DNA of 64,000 nt, from contig MTKO01000102.1 in the NCBI GenBank assembly GCA_004028505.1, forward strand, positions 1 through 64,000, in the 5' to 3' direction. Shown here in pieces: positions 48,229 through 61,571 of this stretch; the first letter of the stretch is position 1; each line of letters starts with the position of its first letter. This DNA is from Candidatus Electrothrix aarhusensis. Its GTDB lineage: Bacteria; Desulfobacterota; Desulfobulbia; Desulfobulbales; Desulfobulbaceae. The notes under the pieces were generated by a model. It made no database searches. It was given only the letters and a program-made list of their open reading frames with translations, and was not told where the DNA came from. The position numbers and the translations under genes were made by a program.

Positions 48229-49319
48229 ATGGAACAGGATATTCGGGATGATAATCCCTTTTACAGGAACTGGTATGACCTTGTTAGCCCGGAACGTCTG
48301 GAGGTTACCAGGGAGAGCCATACAAACAGGTATGGTAAATTTATCTGCCAGCCTTTAGAACGCGGTTTTGCAGCGACAATAGGGAATTCCTTACGCAGGA
48401 TACTTCTTTCCTCTATCAGAGGAGCTGCGATTACTTCCGTTCGAATTGAGGGAGCTGATCATGAGTTTACCACAATTGACGGAGTGCAGGAAGACGTCGC
48501 TGATATTATACTGAACCTGAAGCAGGTTCAGTTGAAGCTCAACGCTCCTGAGACCAGAACTGTTGTCATAGAAAAAAGTGAGACTGGCTTGATCACTGCT
48601 GGTGATATTGATGGCGGTGACAAGGTTGAAGTTATGAATCCGGAACAGCGATTTGCACGGTGACTGGAGCCAACACTACTTTCCGGGCTGAACTTGAGGT
48701 TCAGTGGGGCAAGGGCTATGTTCCAGCGGATTGGAATAAAAAAGAAAATCGTCCCTTGGGCGTGATTCCTATTGATGCTGCTTTTTCACCGATACTTCGT
48801 ATTCAGTATGTGGTGAGTCAGGCCCGTGTTGGGCAACGGACAGACTATGACCGCCTCACGATAGAAATTGAAACTGACGGGTCTGTGCTCCCGGAGAATG
48901 CTCTTGCCTATGCTGCTAAGATTCTCAAGGAACAAATGACGATCTTTATCAATTTTAATGAGCAAGAGGCGATAGCTCCTGAGAGAGGGGATGGTGATGG
49001 TGATGGTCAGGACTTTCCTGATTTTCTCGATAAAAATGTCGAGGATCTTGAGCTTTCAGTTCGTTCCGCAAACTGTCTGAAGAATGCCAACATACAGTAT
49101 ATTGGTCAATTGGTGCAAAAAACAGACGCTGAAATGCTGAAAACGAAAAATTTTGGTCGTAAATCACTGAATGAGATTAAAGCTCTCCTCTCGCAGCATG
49201 ACTTGACCCTTAATATGTCCCACGAGGCTGGGTGTTACCCTGTGAACGAGAGGACGCTGACATCGAAGGTTAATCTAGAGCAATCTAGAGTATGCCTTCA
49301 GATTGATCGGCTAACGTGA
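48229..49319 (+). CDS. rpoA: DNA-directed RNA polymerase alpha subunit, frameshifted
   Basis: Alpha forms the assembly scaffold (NTD) and contacts promoters and activators (CTD). The NTD starts normally (LERGFAATIGNSLRRILLSS) to residue ~141; near 48650 one base is missing (CAGCGATTTGC; adding one gives QRICTVTGANTTFRAELEVQ), after which the rest follows. The CTD has SANCLKNANIQYIGQLVQKT and LKTKNFGRKSLNEIKALLSQ. The last ~35 codons to 49319 look unlike alpha and use rare codons. One base added at ~49221 would instead give an end RGWVLPCEREDADIEG with stop at 49271-49273, so a second shift is likely and the true end may be 49273. Confidence 0.92.
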
Positions 49320-49343
49320 TTTACCGATTTTGAGGATAGAATA

Positions 49344-49727
49344 ATGAGACATAGAAAAACCGGTAGAAAACTGAACAGGAGTGCCTCTCATCGTTTAGCA
49401 ATGATGCGGAATATCGTAACTTCGCTTCTTGAGCATGAGAGAATTTCCACAACTGTGCCCAAGGCCAAAGAGGCTCGGCGTGTAGCAGAAAAAATGATCA
49501 CCTTGGGAAAACGTGGTGATTTACACGCTCGGCGGCAGGCCATGGCTTATATCCGTTCAAAGGATATTGTGGCAAAACTTTTTGATAAGATTAGTGAGCA
49601 GTATACTGACCGTCAGGGTGGGTATACGCGGATTGTTCGTACTGGAGTTCGTTCCGGCGATGCTGCTCCTATGGCCATCATTGAGCTGGTTGGCTATGAG
49701 GAATCAGCTGTGCAGGAAGCAGAATAG
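49344..49727 (+). CDS. rplQ: 50S ribosomal protein L17
   Basis: 127 residues: [20 protein letters not shown] and [21 protein letters not shown]-terminal [20 protein letters not shown]. Last gene of the ribosomal supercluster, followed by a strong terminator. Confidence 0.98.
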
Positions 49728-49811
49728 AAGAAGCTGTGTACTGATTACCCCCGTTGAAAGAGGTACAGAGTAACCTTTTCTGTAGCTCTCCTGAAACGGA
49801 AGGATGTATTG

Positions 49812-49848
49812 AGCCGGTTTGATGATCATCATCAAACCGGCTTTTTTT
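49812..49848 (+). terminator. Strong intrinsic terminator after rplQ
   Basis: AGCCGGTTTGATGAT pairs with ATCATCAAACCGGCT, then seven T. It closes the 33-kb expression cluster. Confidence 0.95.
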
Positions 49849-49861
49849 ATGGAGAATGGTT

Positions 49862-50641
49862 ATGAGTAGTGAAGTGACTACAGAAACAGGACCTGATGCA
49901 CAAACAATTCCTTTGCAGCAAAGGGACTTCTTCCAGTTTCGTTGCCACCCTGGGGTCAGTTGTTATCTGACCTGTTGTCATAAATTAGAGTTACGACTTT
50001 ATCCTTATGATATTATTTCTTTAAAAGATAAACTGTCGTGTAGTTCAACAGAGTTCCTGGAGTGTTATACCCGTTTAGGGGCAGGCGTACACCCGTATTT
50101 CCCAGCAGTCATGTTGAATATGGTGGTGAGTGAGGAAGCGCCGTGTCCGTTTCTCACTGAAGCGGGTTGCTCTGTTTATGCAGATCGCCCTTCAGCTTGT
50201 CGAACATACCCTTTGGAGAGAGGGGTTGAAAAAGAGGGGATAGGGGCAAGGCTGAAAAGCCATTACTCTGTTGTCCGTCATGCTTACTGCAAGGGCCATG
50301 ATGAAGAGAACAGCTACACCGTTCGCCAATGGAAACGTGAGCAGCGCCTGGATTCCTTTAACCTGATGAACGATCTCTGGGCCGAGGTTGATGCCTTGTT
50401 TGCCAGCGACCCCTGGCAGGGCGAAGGACATGCTGGCCCTCGGCAGCAATTAGCCTTTATGGTTTGCTATAATATTGATGCCTTTCGTGCCTACAGCATT
50501 GAGAACAAGCTGACAGCCCGGTATAGGTTAGATCGTGACCAACGGAGGCGTATTGAACGAGATGATGCCGAGCTGCTCAAATTCGGATTTAATTGGCTCT
50601 TGCATGTCCTTGGTAACAAAAGAACATTACGTCCCCGGTAG
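49862..50641 (+). CDS. YkgJ-like cysteine-cluster protein
   Basis: 259 residues. The pattern FFQFRCHPGVSCYLTCCHKL (three to four Cys), then CPFLTEAGCSVYADRPSACR TYPL, is that of the YkgJ/CxxCxxCC family (putative zinc or iron chelating). The C-terminal half (~120-259) is basic and helical and has no motif I know. The ATG at 49862 has GGAG seven bases upstream; an ATG two codons earlier would be too close. It sits just after the rplQ terminator; its stop overlaps by one base the GTG of the transporter gene, so the two are cotranscribed. The biochemical role of the family is unknown. Confidence 0.8.
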   Translation: MSSEVTTETGPDAQTIPLQQRDFFQFRCHPGVSCYLTCCHKLELRLYPYDIISLKDKLSCSSTEFLECYTRLGAGVHPYFPAVMLNMVVSEEAPCPFLTEAGCSVYADRPSACRTYPLERGVEKEGIGARLKSHYSVVRHAYCKGHDEENSYTVRQWKREQRLDSFNLMNDLWAEVDALFASDPWQGEGHAGPRQQLAFMVCYNIDAFRAYSIENKLTARYRLDRDQRRRIERDDAELLKFGFNWLLHVLGNKRTLRPR

Positions 50642-51845
50642 TGCGATCTACTGAGAGCAGGATCAGCTCTCCTCCTGGTTGGTATATCCTCGGTGTCCTC
50701 AGCCTGCTTATGGGCTTTGGTTCAATCTCCACCGACCTCTACCTCCCAGCCATGCCCTCTATGGGTCGCGCTTTGGGCGCAAATGCTGGCATGATAGAGC
50801 TGACCATTTCGGGTTATCTGATCGGGTTCAGCCTGGGACAGCTCTTTTGGGGACCAATCAGTGATCGATATGGTCGCCGACCCTCAGTGTCTGCTGGCTT
50901 GATTCTCTTTGTCATCGGTTCAGGAGGATGTGCTCTTGCTGGGAGCGCACCCGCGCTTATCGGTTGGCGGATTGTCCAGGCAATCGGGGCCTGTGCCGGT
51001 GTTGCCTTGGCACGGGCAATGGTTCGTGATCTTTATGTGGGTAATCGGGCCGCGCAGATGCTCTCAAGCCTGATGACTATCATGACCATTGCGCCGCTTC
51101 TCGGTCCCTTGCTGGGTGGGCAGATCGTGGCGTTGGCTGGCTGGCGTGCTGTTTTTGGGTTCCTAGTGGTGGTGGGCTTATTCACCCTTATTCTTCTGTG
51201 GACTATCCCTGAAACCTTGCCTGCCAGCCGCCGGAATACTGAGTCCTTCCGAGGTGCCCTGCGCTATTACGGCGAATTGCTCCGCCATCGCCGGATCCTT
51301 GGGTATGCAAGTACCGGCGGTTTCCTTTATGCCGGTTTGTTTGCCTATGTGGCCGGGACCCCCTTTATCTATATTAATTATTACCATGTCTCTGAGCAGG
51401 GATACGGTTTTTTCTGGGGGATTGTCATTGTCGGTGCCACAGCGGCAAATTTCCTCAATGCCCGTTTGGTTATCCGGCATGGTTATGATCGAATCCTGAT
51501 CATCGGCACCGTGGTGATGGCCCTTGCAGCTTTTACTACTGCCTGGACAGCCGGAACCGGCTGGGGCGGGCTGTGGGGCTTGGTCTTACCCCTGTTTGTG
51601 TTTATTTCCAGTGTGGGACTCATCGTGGCCAACTCGGTTGCCGGAGCCATGACTTGTTTTCCTGAACGGGCCGGGGCTGTGTCCGCCTTGGTCGGGGCAA
51701 TCCATTACGGCAGCGGGATTATCGGATCTGCCTGGTCGGCCTCCTTGCCGATGGTACGCCTTGGCCTATGGGCTTGATTATCGGTATGACTGGAGTGGGT
51801 TGCCTCCTCTCAACTTTTTTCTTGTTAAAGGCTCCCGAGAAATAA
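50641..51845 (+). CDS. Bcr/CflA-type drug-resistance transporter (MFS), frameshifted near its end
   Basis: A 12-helix major facilitator. The DHA1 signature reads FGSISTDLYLPAMPSMGRAL (~21-40), typical of Bcr/CflA, with the loop motif GPISDRYGRRPSVSAG (~77-92) and GWRIVQAIGACAGVALARAM. The frame ends early at 51777 (SAWSASLPMVRLGLWA). Adding one C at ~51731 (GCCTGG to GCCCTGG) restores SALVGLLADGTPWPMGLIIG and the last helix, with a stop at 51845, total ~400 residues as normal for the family. GTG start, overlapping the previous gene. The substrate cannot be told. Confidence 0.85.
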
Positions 51846-51862
51846 TTGTTCCAGGAACAATT
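51844..51862 (+). repeat. Palindrome at the end of the transporter gene
   Basis: AATTGTTCC-A-GGAACAATT, a perfect 9-base palindrome overlapping the transporter stop. No T run follows. The rest of the ~250-base gap to the next gene holds nothing else that I can support. Confidence 0.5.
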
Positions 51863-52096
51863 CCTCTGTAACCCCCGTCTCTTTTCGCTGCATTTCAGCA
51901 GATCTTAAGCAGTTGTCCCGTCATCAACTTTATCCTCTCGATTTGGATGAATTTTTTCTTTACTCGTTTCCTGTTCCATGCTACTTGTTGTATTTGTTTG
52001 ATAAGAGGGAGAATACAGGTGAGCTTTTGATGGGCATATCTGAATGAAACGAAAGGAAGTCTCCTTTACCGGTAACTATTAACACAAGAGTTGAAA

Positions 52097-52495
52097 ATGA
52101 AAGGTATTATGAGAATAGCAGCAGTAATAGTTGTGTCGCTCTTGTTGCTTACAACCGACCTCATGGCGGAAGAGAGCAAGGTAGAAAATATTACGCCGGA
52201 TATTGTCGGAAAAACATATCTGTTTGATTATGGTGAGTATGCGTATGACATAACAATAACGTCTGACAAGTCGTTACATTGGAAGCTGGCTAAAGGAAGC
52301 TTTGAAGGGCCGAGCACAGGAGATAATCCGTATCTGTCCAGTAAAATTGCTGATGGTGTTGTCTTCATATCCTGGAAAGAAAAAAGCGGGTATCAGTTTT
52401 ATAATGTTATGGATTTGAATACCGGGAAGTTAACAACCCATGCTAATGCGGACGGGTTGTCTATAAATATGGGAAAGGTTACGTTGAAGAAGTGA
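52097..52495 (+). CDS. Exported small protein, MoaF-like fold
   Basis: 132 residues with a clear signal peptide (RIAAVIVVSLLLLTTDLMAE, ~5-24, cleavage after MAE or nearby). The mature part, DIVGKTYLFDYGEYAYDITI then SSKIADGVVFISWKEKSGYQ and FYNVMDLNTGKLTTHANADG, looks like the small beta-barrel MoaF-like proteins (lipocalin-type strands). The family has no agreed function. ATG at 52097 chosen; an ATG at 52109 is also possible. Stands alone, with its own weak ribosome-binding site. Confidence 0.6.
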   Translation: MKGIMRIAAVIVVSLLLLTTDLMAEESKVENITPDIVGKTYLFDYGEYAYDITITSDKSLHWKLAKGSFEGPSTGDNPYLSSKIADGVVFISWKEKSGYQFYNVMDLNTGKLTTHANADGLSINMGKVTLKK

Positions 52496-52653
52496 TGTGT
52501 GGCTGAGTGGGGTAGTTTGGGTAAGGAAAACGGAGCATTGCCTCCGCCTTGCTGCAACAGGTTGTATCTGTTGAGGTTATTGCCAAGGCTACTACGGGGT
52601 TGTTGGTGGGTGAGCTTGAAGAAATGCGGGGGCGGGAAAGGGAGGTGCAATAG

Positions 52654-52683
52654 TTGACGTTACCCATTCGCTGATCATAGTAT
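52654..52683 (+). promoter_or_regulatory. Candidate promoter of the MNT gene
   Basis: TTGACG (52654-52659), an 18-base spacer and TAGTAT (52678-52683), about 55 bases before the nucleotidyltransferase gene. The 243-base gap before this gene also has a ~43-codon open stretch (52530-52653) with no recognisable product. Confidence 0.45.
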
Positions 52684-52738
52684 ACTGGTGATACATGTTG
52701 GGTTATGATCTTGATAATAGAGAAAAGAGGCGGAACGC

Positions 52739-53056
52739 ATGATTATGACATATCTGGATGATATCGTTTGTGAATTCAAACAGGCGGTTGCCGCGAAATA
52801 TACCGTGAGTGACATGAGGCTCTTCGGTTCAAATGCGCGGGAAGACGCGACAGAAGAGTCTGACATTGACATTTTTATTCAGATTCCCGATCTGACGACG
52901 GATATTGAGCAGGATGTGTACAATATGGCTTATGATTTAGAGTTGAAGTATGACTGTTTAGTTGATGTTATCCTGCTCTCTGATTCTGACATCGGTACCC
53001 ATGCGGATTGCCTACCGATCTACCGCAATATTCTGCGGGAAGGGGTGCGCCTGTGA
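52739..53056 (+). CDS. MNT-type minimal nucleotidyltransferase
   Basis: 105 residues. The nucleotidyltransferase signature is complete: LFGSNAREDATEESDIDIFI with G30, S31, D42 and D44, and the third acid D76 in LVDVILL. Stand-alone proteins like this are usually the antitoxin half of MNT-HEPN pairs; well-studied members AMPylate the HEPN toxin. AGAGG lies ahead of the ATG. Its stop overlaps a GTG for the next, apparently decayed, reading frame. Confidence 0.85.
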   Translation: MIMTYLDDIVCEFKQAVAAKYTVSDMRLFGSNAREDATEESDIDIFIQIPDLTTDIEQDVYNMAYDLELKYDCLVDVILLSDSDIGTHADCLPIYRNILREGVRL

Positions 53057-53209
53057 TACCTGAAGATCGTCGGACGATCATGACCTATAGCTTGGAACGC
53101 TCGGCTGTTACGCGAAAACGGGATGCTCATCCCGGCCATGAATCTTGTCAATATCATGGAAAGTTTCCATTTATTAATATTGTGCTGTGGGGAGGATGAT
53201 TCGACATGA
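53053..53209 (+). pseudogene. Probable remnant of a HEPN partner gene
   Basis: A GTG overlapping the MNT stop opens IPEDRRTIMTYSLERSAVTR, resembling the start of HEPN toxins (YxLERAxxTLxDAxxL). The frame then loses likeness; in the next frame NGMLIPAMNLVNIMESFHLL resembles the A-NxxYYAxFHAL helix of HEPN, but the RX4-6H catalytic motif and the remaining ~70 residues are gone, ending by 53209. This is best read as a truncated, frameshifted HEPN gene. The similarity is short, so the identity is uncertain. Confidence 0.4.
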
Positions 53210-53547
53210 GTGAAGTGCCCAAAGAATCCCAAGCTTTTGCTAGGGCGAAGATGCAGGAGATATTAGATTAAGCTGTTGATGCTGGTGCTGATGCGGTCAC
53301 AATTGAGTTCGCCAAAGAAGGCGGTCTGGAGGTACTCTTTGTGTTCGGGAATACAGGTATCGGGGATATCTTTATTCAGCAGAACCTTGAGGAAGATGTT
53401 ATGACTCTGATTTATGAACAATCAGGGCTGGAGGGAAAGTCCTGCGGTGTACTGCATTGGGAATGCCACGGGCAGAATCTGGAGATCAATGTAGAGGAGT
53501 ATGAAAGCTTCGGTGAAATTGCATATACATTGACATTTCTGAAATGA
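53206..53547 (+). pseudogene. Small hypothetical gene with an in-frame stop
   Basis: A good GGAGG site and ATG at 53206 begin SEVPKESQAFARAKMQEILD, then TAA at 53269-53271 (codon 22) interrupts. Without the stop the frame runs on to 53547 (AVDAGADAVTIEFAKEGGLE, then GNTGIGDIFIQQNLEED, EYESFGEIAYTLTFLK), total 113 residues. The second part alone could be translated from an internal ATG at 53401 but has no obvious start site. I do not recognise the family. Nonsense mutation and base-call error are both possible. Confidence 0.55.
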
Positions 53548-53693
53548 CATCAACAAAACACAGAGCAAGTCAGTTAAGGTGACAGTCAGGCCCGAGCAGT
53601 TTTTGGAAATGTTGAGTAATTGAATAGTTAAGGAAAAGAGAAAATGGGCTCTGACCCCGATTTTCTGTCTGATTGAGCAGTCCATATTTTAAG

Positions 53694-53712
53694 CCACCGG
53701 CTTGGCCGGTGG
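53694..53712. repeat. Short palindrome between convergent genes
   Basis: CCACCGG (53694-53700), loop CTTGG, CCGGTGG (53706-53712). It resembles the foot hairpins of IS200/IS605-type or REP elements. Just before it (53645-53665) is GGGCTCTGACCCCGATTTTC, a fragment that also suggests an old mobile-element end. No transposase gene is nearby. Confidence 0.45.
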
Positions 53713-53725
53713 ATACTTACTCGCA

Positions 53726-55630
53726 TTATTCATAATCCCCAATTACTGCTTTGATAGCCGGAATTCCTTCAGTTGTCAGTGTTGCACCCGTTTTTAAGGC
53801 GTTCATCCCAAGCGTGAACAGAGAGGACTTGTCTGCGGGAGCACATGGCTTTAATGTACCTAACGTGTTAATCTGCGAATCAAGCTTGCGGGTAGCACTC
53901 TCCAGAATTTTCCGCCTCTCGTGGGAATCAAGATCAATGCCCAGTACGAAAAAGTTCGATGCAAAATTCATGAGGGTCCATTCTATATTGCCCAGGATTT
54001 CTCCTTCTTTTTGAGTGAAGCAATTCCAGTTTTCATAACGTTGCTTCAAGAGTGTGTCCGCTGTAATACGCATTCTTAAGGCGACACCTCGGGCAAGGGC
54101 ATCAGAAGAAGTATTACCGAACTGTTTTGCACCGGCAGTGGAAAGGGCTGCTGCCTTTTTGATAACCGCCTTGTTTTCGGTGAAAATCGCTGACCCGAGT
54201 TTTACCCCTTCCATGCCCGCTGCAAAAAACGTTTCATAGGCAAGTGCCTCGTTTTCCAAGAGAGCGGTAATGCGTTTGATAGCAGTATCAACCCTTGCGA
54301 TCAATTTCCCGTCGTGTCCGGGATCAATATCCAAGCCGAACACGGCAAAGTTCGAATTAAAATTGGTCAAGGTGAACTCAAGGTTTTCCAGTTGATACTT
54401 CTCCTTTTTCGTTAAGGTATCCCCGTTATTGTAACGGTATTTGAGCAAGAGGGAGGCCATATTGCGAAATTCTAATCCCATCTTCCTGCTGAGATTATAA
54501 CCTTCTGGATTTGGATAGTTATAATCGTCAAAGTTTATCTCTTCTTTCAGGATGTTCCGGATAGCCTGCACGTCCTCTCCTGTAAGGGCGGCACCCAGGT
54601 TTAACACCCGGTTGCCCAGCTCTATAATCCGGTTGTAGGAGTCAATGGTATTTTCAGCTACCTGGGATATTGCTGTTATAAAATTCCTGCTTTTAACAAG
54701 AACCTGCTCCATGATCTCCTTTGTCTGCCCCTTGCCCAGTGTAATTCCCAAGCCTCCGAAATTTGAATTATAGTTAAGGAGGATACTCTCTATATTTTGG
54801 AGAGTGCTCCGCTGAGATGAGTCAAGGTGCTCCCAGTTCAGGTAATGAAATCTGAGCATCAGGTCGGATACCCTGCTGAAATTAAAACCGATTGATCGAG
54901 CAACTGCGGGATCTGCCATACTCGTGGACGCATTGTGTTCAGGAGACGCATCATGGCTGTTAACCAAGGAGCTGAGCTGGTCATGGTTGTTGCTTGATAT
55001 GGCTGCCCCGAACTTTAACGCCCATGCGCCAAGCTTCGTTATCTGAGCGGTATCTTCCTGTCGGGAATCGACAGCGGACCGGATATGTTTGCAGACCTTT
55101 TCGATCTTGTCAGTAATCCGGTAATAGAGAGATGTTGCATCTTTCGAGTAAAGGGAGATGCCCGCGTTTGCACAATCGGTGCAGTAATTAATAAGGGACC
55201 ATTCAATATTTTCGATATAATACTGTTCGTTGTCGTTCAGGTTGGTCCAATTCCTGTGGCGATAACGTACAAGAAGGTCTGAGAGTTTTCTGAAATTGAG
55301 ACCGATCTGGCGCGACTGATCCCGAGTGAGGTAGTTTGACTTCGGTTTCGGCAGATCAGGTGATTTCTTGCTGTAGGAGACAAATCCGGTATTGAATGCT
55401 ATGAACGATGTGTACAGTTCATGGTCCGCCCTGCCTTGAAAAAGTGTATACCATCCATCAGTCGGTCTGTAGGGTTCGTTGTGCTGATTATGGGAACCCC
55501 AAATAAAAATAAAACATTTCGTTTTTTGTTCAACTGTTGAGAAAATGGCCTTGCAGGAAATCTTTGCCTCTGCTGTCTGACTGGAGTTATCGGACAATAA
55601 TTTCGAATTAACGGTTGTAACTTTATCCAT
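53726..55630 (-). CDS. 634-residue protein with four tandem ~135-residue repeats, family unknown
   Basis: I cannot assign this protein to a known family. After a ~95-residue N-terminal part (KCFIFIWGSHNQHNEPYRPT) come four divergent copies of one unit at about 105-225, 242-362, 379-499 and 510-632. Each has IG(L/F)xF-x5-DLLxRYRxxNWxxL, then E-x4-NIEWxLxNxxSNFxxxGIxL ~25 residues on, and LGxxxLKLGAA near its end. Examples are NYNSNFGGLGITL, NFNSNFAVFGLDI and NFASNFFVLGIDL. The units look mainly helical. There is no signal peptide, membrane helix or catalytic motif that I see, so it is probably cytoplasmic and possibly a scaffold or binding protein. AGGAGG lies 3-8 bases before the ATG. It stands alone, convergent with the broken small genes. 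Confidence 0.85.
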   Translation of the reverse strand: MDKVTTVNSKLLSDNSSQTAEAKISCKAIFSTVEQKTKCFIFIWGSHNQHNEPYRPTDGWYTLFQGRADHELYTSFIAFNTGFVSYSKKSPDLPKPKSNYLTRDQSRQIGLNFRKLSDLLVRYRHRNWTNLNDNEQYYIENIEWSLINYCTDCANAGISLYSKDATSLYYRITDKIEKVCKHIRSAVDSRQEDTAQITKLGAWALKFGAAISSNNHDQLSSLVNSHDASPEHNASTSMADPAVARSIGFNFSRVSDLMLRFHYLNWEHLDSSQRSTLQNIESILLNYNSNFGGLGITLGKGQTKEIMEQVLVKSRNFITAISQVAENTIDSYNRIIELGNRVLNLGAALTGEDVQAIRNILKEEINFDDYNYPNPEGYNLSRKMGLEFRNMASLLLKYRYNNGDTLTKKEKYQLENLEFTLTNFNSNFAVFGLDIDPGHDGKLIARVDTAIKRITALLENEALAYETFFAAGMEGVKLGSAIFTENKAVIKKAAALSTAGAKQFGNTSSDALARGVALRMRITADTLLKQRYENWNCFTQKEGEILGNIEWTLMNFASNFFVLGIDLDSHERRKILESATRKLDSQINTLGTLKPCAPADKSSLFTLGMNALKTGATLTTEGIPAIKAVIGDYE

Positions 55631-55805
55631 GACTCCTCCTTTTTGAAATATCGGACAACGTCCCCATTCGAAACACCTTGCATCAAGTGAATAACTTGTT
55701 CATTTTTTTCTGTCTGCTTTTGCCTTGCTGTTATCAAGGACTCTGTTTTTAACGAACAGTTTTTTGTTTAAAATTTAGTACCACTTTGTAGGTGGCGTTA
55801 AGTTT

Positions 55806-55835
55806 TTTATATGTCATTTTGTAATGATTTTTCAA
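55806..55835 (-). promoter_or_regulatory. Candidate promoter of the four-repeat protein
   Basis: On the minus strand TTGAAA (55835-55830), an 18-base spacer and TATAAA (55811-55806), each 5 of 6 to consensus, ~175 bases before the start. Confidence 0.5.
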
Positions 55836-55859
55836 GTGTTATTTAATATTGATTATTGT

Positions 55860-55944
55860 TTGACAACAAGAATGGTTAAGGTGAGATAATTACTACTTAA
55901 AAAGAAAGGGAGTGCTTATTTTTGCCGAGAAATAAAAAACACTC
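55860..55944 (+). promoter_or_regulatory. Divergent promoter candidate and hairpin
   Basis: TTGACA (55860-55865) with GATAAT at 55885-55890 (19-base spacer, slightly long). It is followed by a hairpin with GAGTG (55910-55914) and CACTC (55940-55944) outside and TTATTT/AAATAA inside. It would transcribe the acidic protein at 56100. The AT-rich 469-base gap (55631-56099) holds no other gene I can support. Confidence 0.35.
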
Positions 55945-56099
55945 TTTTCTCTTGAATTTCCCGAGAAAATGCGATAGTTATCTGTATTTTTCTGCGAGAA
56001 GATGAGAACCATCCGCTGAGGAATGGATGATGGTCGGTACGGCTCTGGAAACCGAGATCACCCTGAATAATCAGGAGCGCGAGGAAACACGGAAGCGTT

Positions 56100-61349: not shown

Positions 61350-61407
61350 TTGCATTTGCATTTGCATTTGCATTTGCATTTGCATTTGCATTTGCATTTG
61401 CATTTGC
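61350..61407. repeat. Hexanucleotide microsatellite (TTTGCA)n between tsf and pyrH
   Basis: Nearly ten perfect copies of a six-base unit (TTTGCA) without interruption. It lies in the tsf-pyrH intergenic region, ~165 bases before pyrH. The unit length is a multiple of three, but no reading frame that I can support crosses it. Confidence 0.95.
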
Positions 61408-61420
61408 GACGCTGAGTTTT

Positions 61421-61451
61421 CGGTTGCCGGACAAAGGGGTACCGGCAACCG
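61421..61451 (+). promoter_or_regulatory. Hairpin before pyrH
   Basis: CGGTTGCCGG (61421-61430) pairs perfectly with CCGGCAACCG (61442-61451) around 11 bases. No T run follows. It sits between the TTTGCA repeat and pyrH. Confidence 0.6.
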
Positions 61452-61571
61452 TTCGGGTCTGCGGACTCGATTTCCCCTCCACCCTGTTTCCAAGCCGCAG
61501 TGTTATGGAATATCTGGAATATCCGACCCTGCCGCTCAATGCATAAATTTCCTGCCAGCGGAGGCGTATCC

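Follow-up and report, generated by a model that had tools for sequence, protein, structure and literature searches.

A four-unit, predicted all-helical repeat protein of an undescribed family in Candidatus Electrothrix aarhusensis and its single-unit relatives beside lipoprotein genes

A gene of Candidatus Electrothrix aarhusensis encodes a 634-residue protein in which an N-terminal stretch is followed by four copies of a unit of 122-138 residues, and it is well supported that these four units define an undescribed protein family with a fusion history. The gene lies in the window, i.e. the whole 64,000-nucleotide stretch of contig MTKO01000102.1 that was analysed. Its features, together with the segment in which it is found, are as follows.

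53726..55630, reverse strand: four-unit gene for a 634-residue protein, running from an ATG to a TAA; the reading frame is exact and intact, and the relative in Desulfobacter vibrioformis is 44% identical over the aligned protein
55635..55640, reverse strand: ribosome-binding site AGGAGG, 4 nt 5' of the ATG, read directly from the sequence
55316..55630, reverse strand: N-terminal stretch, residues 1-105, which neither resembles the units nor contains a lipobox; the Desulfobacter relative begins differently, and residues 1-98 are modelled with a pLDDT below 50
54902..55315, reverse strand: unit 1, residues 106-243 (138 residues), from the unit alignment; tree partner Desulfobacter unit 1
54491..54901, reverse strand: unit 2, residues 244-380 (137 residues), from the unit alignment; tree partner Desulfobacter unit 2 (support 85/86)
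54095..54490, reverse strand: unit 3, residues 381-512 (132 residues), from the unit alignment; tree partner Desulfobacter unit 3; the model of this unit is a bundle of five helices (pLDDT 83, pTM 0.77)
53729..54094, reverse strand: unit 4, residues 513-634 (122 residues), from the unit alignment; tree partner Desulfobacter unit 4
52508..56097, no strand assigned: variable segment containing the gene; unrelated DNA takes its place in a genome of the same genus, G060 (L041:5530-9816), between flanks that are 87-93% identical

The repeat architecture is confirmed. When the 634-residue frame is split at the recurring (S/A)R that begins each repeat, all six pairs of units align over nearly their full length with 24-35% identity and scores of 130-158, against means of 26-30 (standard deviation of about 5) for shuffled sequence, which corresponds to z values of 19-27, and none of 500 shuffles reaches the score of any pair. 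An earlier note, made from the sequence alone, had proposed four units with shared motifs; the motifs that it named are present and the homology of the units is borne out. Six residues (R2, N36, E38, L41, N43 and G103) are invariant across eight units, four from the window protein and four from its Desulfobacter relative, while the N-terminal 105 residues show no resemblance to the units in the self-comparison. In the nucleotide sequence of the window gene no repeat can be seen, so the duplications are old.

Profiles from Pfam, NCBIfam, PHROGs and PADLOC gave nothing above cut-off with the window protein (best E 0.02-0.1), and PDB sequences, searched by single sequence and by profile, gave no match, so the suggestion that the family was an unrecognised one holds for all of these collections. 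The weak Pfam matches (MCPVI, Exonuc_X-T_C, Laminin, OapB, VpsR and spanin) were far below cut-off and were rejected. A viral origin was rejected as well, since viral contigs, phage records and viral folds contained no relative. The four-unit gene was not found on plasmids, and searches of the literature returned nothing relevant.

When one genome per species was scanned by pattern, a single relative emerged, which belongs to Desulfobacter vibrioformis DSM 8776 (L006:4848-6572). The corresponding protein, P0002, has 574 residues and the same four units in the same order, with the window motifs kept as well as those of the Desulfobacter copy. In a tree of the units, 1 pairs with 1, 2 with 2, 3 with 3 and 4 with 4, which places the quadruplication before the split of the two genes and upholds the antiquity that the earlier note had read into the divergence of the units. 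The two proteins differ in that the Desulfobacter one begins with a signal peptide carrying a lipobox (MRNVLIGFILLCLTTTTGC, PROSITE pattern), whereas the window protein has neither, and both the N-termini and the neighbouring genes are different. Elsewhere in the D. vibrioformis genome the last unit occurs a second time, as a broken fragment (L014:1507-1695).

The presence of the gene is patchy. Searches with the protein and with the unit profile found it in 1 of 74 genomes of the window's family, namely the window's own. In the D. vibrioformis family it is present in 1 of 86 genomes, the 85 others having been searched to no avail. This pattern fits the location of the window gene, since positions 52508-56097 are an insertion spot that swaps cargo: the replacement DNA in G060 includes a gene for an AAA_21 ATPase (AbiEii-like by its Pfam description), near which there are genes that look transposase-like on reading their sequences. 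The same segment of the window also holds a small nucleotidyltransferase gene (PF01909, 52739-53056), a possible toxin-antitoxin component. Both in the window (48229-55630) and in the more distant genome G187 (L028), discussed below, rplQ is followed about 4-5 kb downstream by a unit gene on the other strand, with different intervening genes, which is either a coincidence or the trace of an old shared site.

The coding frame has the best codon statistics in each segment of positions 53726-55630, and the intact frame and strong ribosome-binding site on which the earlier note had based its case for expression are both there; the promoter that it also invoked is not supported, as the four promoter-like sites found compare with 3.4 expected and are thus at chance level. 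The claim of a distinct N-terminal part likewise stands in one respect, this part being unlike the units, but the Desulfobacter relative does not share it, and its structure prediction carries very low confidence. No match to the PROSITE lipobox pattern was found in the window protein (P0001), nor was a lipoprotein signal seen in the other frames of the gene. Two conserved genes nearby look frameshifted: rpoA is apparently split over two frames (48229-48663 and 48660-49319, window 48229-49319) and the MFS transporter gene at 50641-51777 ends in a frame that differs from that of its 407-residue relative in G060. These breaks are probably small indel errors in the assembly and, with such frameshifts nearby, sequence errors could also touch the N-terminus of the window gene. 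Further along, at about 61380-61470, a short in-phase hexanucleotide repeat separates tsf-like and pyrH-like genes and translates as repeated QM, NA or CK, depending on which of three frames is read.

Modelling of unit 3, with the eight units as alignment, gave a five-helix bundle (helices 2-21, 28-51, 57-79, 85-104 and 107-118) with a pLDDT of 83 and a pTM of 0.77. In this model R2 is at the start of helix 1, N36, E38 and N43 are on helix 2, and the conserved Y..NW turn joins the two helices, suggesting that the polar residues of helices 1 and 2 either form a network that holds the fold together or present a face for binding. No active site was recognised in the unit. The full-length model is poor (pLDDT 55, pTM 0.36). 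The helical scaffold or solenoid envisaged in the earlier note agrees with the prediction in being all-helical, but since the unit is predicted to be a self-contained closed bundle, a string of separate beads is as probable as one continuous solenoid. Searches of PDB and viral folds with the unit returned nothing convincing (best Foldseek E 0.097 and 0.45), which does not by itself make the fold a new one. Weak look-alikes include the pore domain of colicin A and the CAMP factors, with Foldseek E-values no better than 0.4 and a Z of about 6.

An idea of the origin of the four-unit proteins comes from more remote homologues. The four-unit profile detected a single-unit protein of 137 residues in G187 (L007/L028), a more distant member of the order, with an E-value of 2.5e-9, the gene for which is directly downstream of one for a 293-residue lipoprotein. 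Searches with this lipoprotein gave matches in six genomes of the order (G187, G089, G090, G166, G239 and G242), in G556 of the same phylum and on plasmids from Novosphingobium, Burkholderia and Caballeronia. At all 10 lipoprotein loci a gene for a protein of 127-148 residues follows directly, and 7 of 8 partner lipoproteins have a lipobox by the PROSITE pattern. The pair consists of an undescribed lipoprotein of about 280 residues and a single-unit protein of about 137, between which profile-profile comparison detected no homology. A weak lipoprotein match in G443, which has no partner gene, was set aside as YbgF-like, beside TolB-like and Pal-like genes (names read from the sequences).

The small proteins are tied to the unit with graded strength; E-values of sequences already inside a profile follow by construction and are excluded as evidence. 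The unit profile matches the small proteins of G089, G090 and G166, with E-values scaled to a small set of ORFs, and their own profile matches the four-unit profile with 95% probability (E 2.7e-8, 114 columns). Those of G239, G242 and G556 are linked through this group (86% in profile-profile comparison), and for the plasmid-borne ones the tie is gene order and length, the profile comparison not being significant. Directly beside the pair, two unrelated lineages, Novosphingobium and G556, carry alpha/beta-hydrolase-like genes (the loci being L045:4515-6029 and L015:6528-7622), with weak Pfam support in Novosphingobium but not in G556; these two cases hint at an enzyme partner that might be a third member. 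The partner lipoprotein is absent from the genomes of the window and of D. vibrioformis.

Because the single-unit genes are paired with a lipoprotein that is missing from the four-unit genomes, the four-unit proteins look like the small partner fused fourfold, fusion being a simpler reading than break-up. The best overall explanation, to which we give an even chance, is that four five-helix modules from an envelope pair have been fused into a multivalent binding scaffold, binding being favoured by the four linked copies and the lack of a recognisable active site. At the cell envelope, a free unit would act together with the lipoprotein encoded next to it; the module would then have been fused into one four-unit chain and the separate lipoprotein dropped, with the Desulfobacter chain presumably anchored through its own lipid anchor signal, so that four linked modules could bind a partner at the envelope as a multivalent scaffold. 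In the window copy, where a signal-less stretch replaces the lipoprotein signal, the protein may work in the cytoplasm or be starting to decay. Several points weigh against this explanation: the single-unit proteins have no signal peptide, so unit and lipoprotein may be on different sides of the membrane, the plasmid-borne small proteins are tied to the family through gene order and length, and the window copy has no export signal.

That the window copy is a non-functional remnant on its way to decay, kept merely through recent arrival, is unlikely. Its missing lipoprotein signal and divergent N-terminus would be expected of a remnant, and the broken second copy in D. vibrioformis shows that copies do decay, but a frame that is intact over 634 codons, with the best codon statistics throughout, a good ribosome-binding site and motifs kept as in the Desulfobacter copy, speaks against it. 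Nor is it probable that the units are membrane-active bundles inserting hydrophobic C-terminal helices in the manner of helical pore-forming proteins, with the lipoprotein as receptor or protector, a reading that we consider decidedly unlikely. The last helices of the single-unit relatives are indeed hydrophobic (best 19-residue mean hydropathy 1.4 to 2.0) and pore-forming proteins figure among the weak fold look-alikes; however, the window protein has no 19-residue stretch above 1.05, and these fold matches are not significant and score below designed repeats.

The remaining alternative concerns what the genes are for, namely that the pair and its fused form are conflict cargo serving phage defence or bacterial competition, e.g. 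with the hydrolase as third gene. It draws on the patchy presence of the gene, the AAA_21 ATPase and transposase-like genes at the same spot in the relative, the hydrolase-like neighbours in Novosphingobium and G556 and the pairs on plasmids, but there is no PADLOC match and no phage or viral relative, and most pairs are without common neighbours, leaving it rather unlikely. There is also a broader scenario, which we likewise hold to be somewhat improbable, in which an undescribed two-gene envelope system (lipoprotein and five-helix partner), thinly spread over several lineages and plasmids, became one four-module chain in two lineages, possibly with a hydrolase as an additional component and a part to play in conflicts involving phages or competitors.

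What is new here is a protein domain that had not been described and, along with it, a likewise undescribed gene pair of lipoprotein and partner, which can be traced through genomes. Without a function this is a modest find, because all-helical repeat proteins are common. The nearest fold look-alikes of the unit are designed helical repeat proteins such as 8tlp, likewise all-helical (Z 9.4 over 119 residues at 3.3 A), to which there is no sequence relation and for which the Z value is within the tool's range for common helical arrangements. Among natural proteins, besides the Desulfobacter relative, a close comparison is with the single-unit proteins (L028, L026, L025 and L027), whose unit is homologous (profile-profile probability 95-97%). 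They consist of one unit, have no signal peptide and adjoin a separate lipoprotein gene, whereas the four-unit genomes are without that lipoprotein, and the one-copy and four-copy forms offer a natural test of what happens when a small module is joined up into a multivalent chain.
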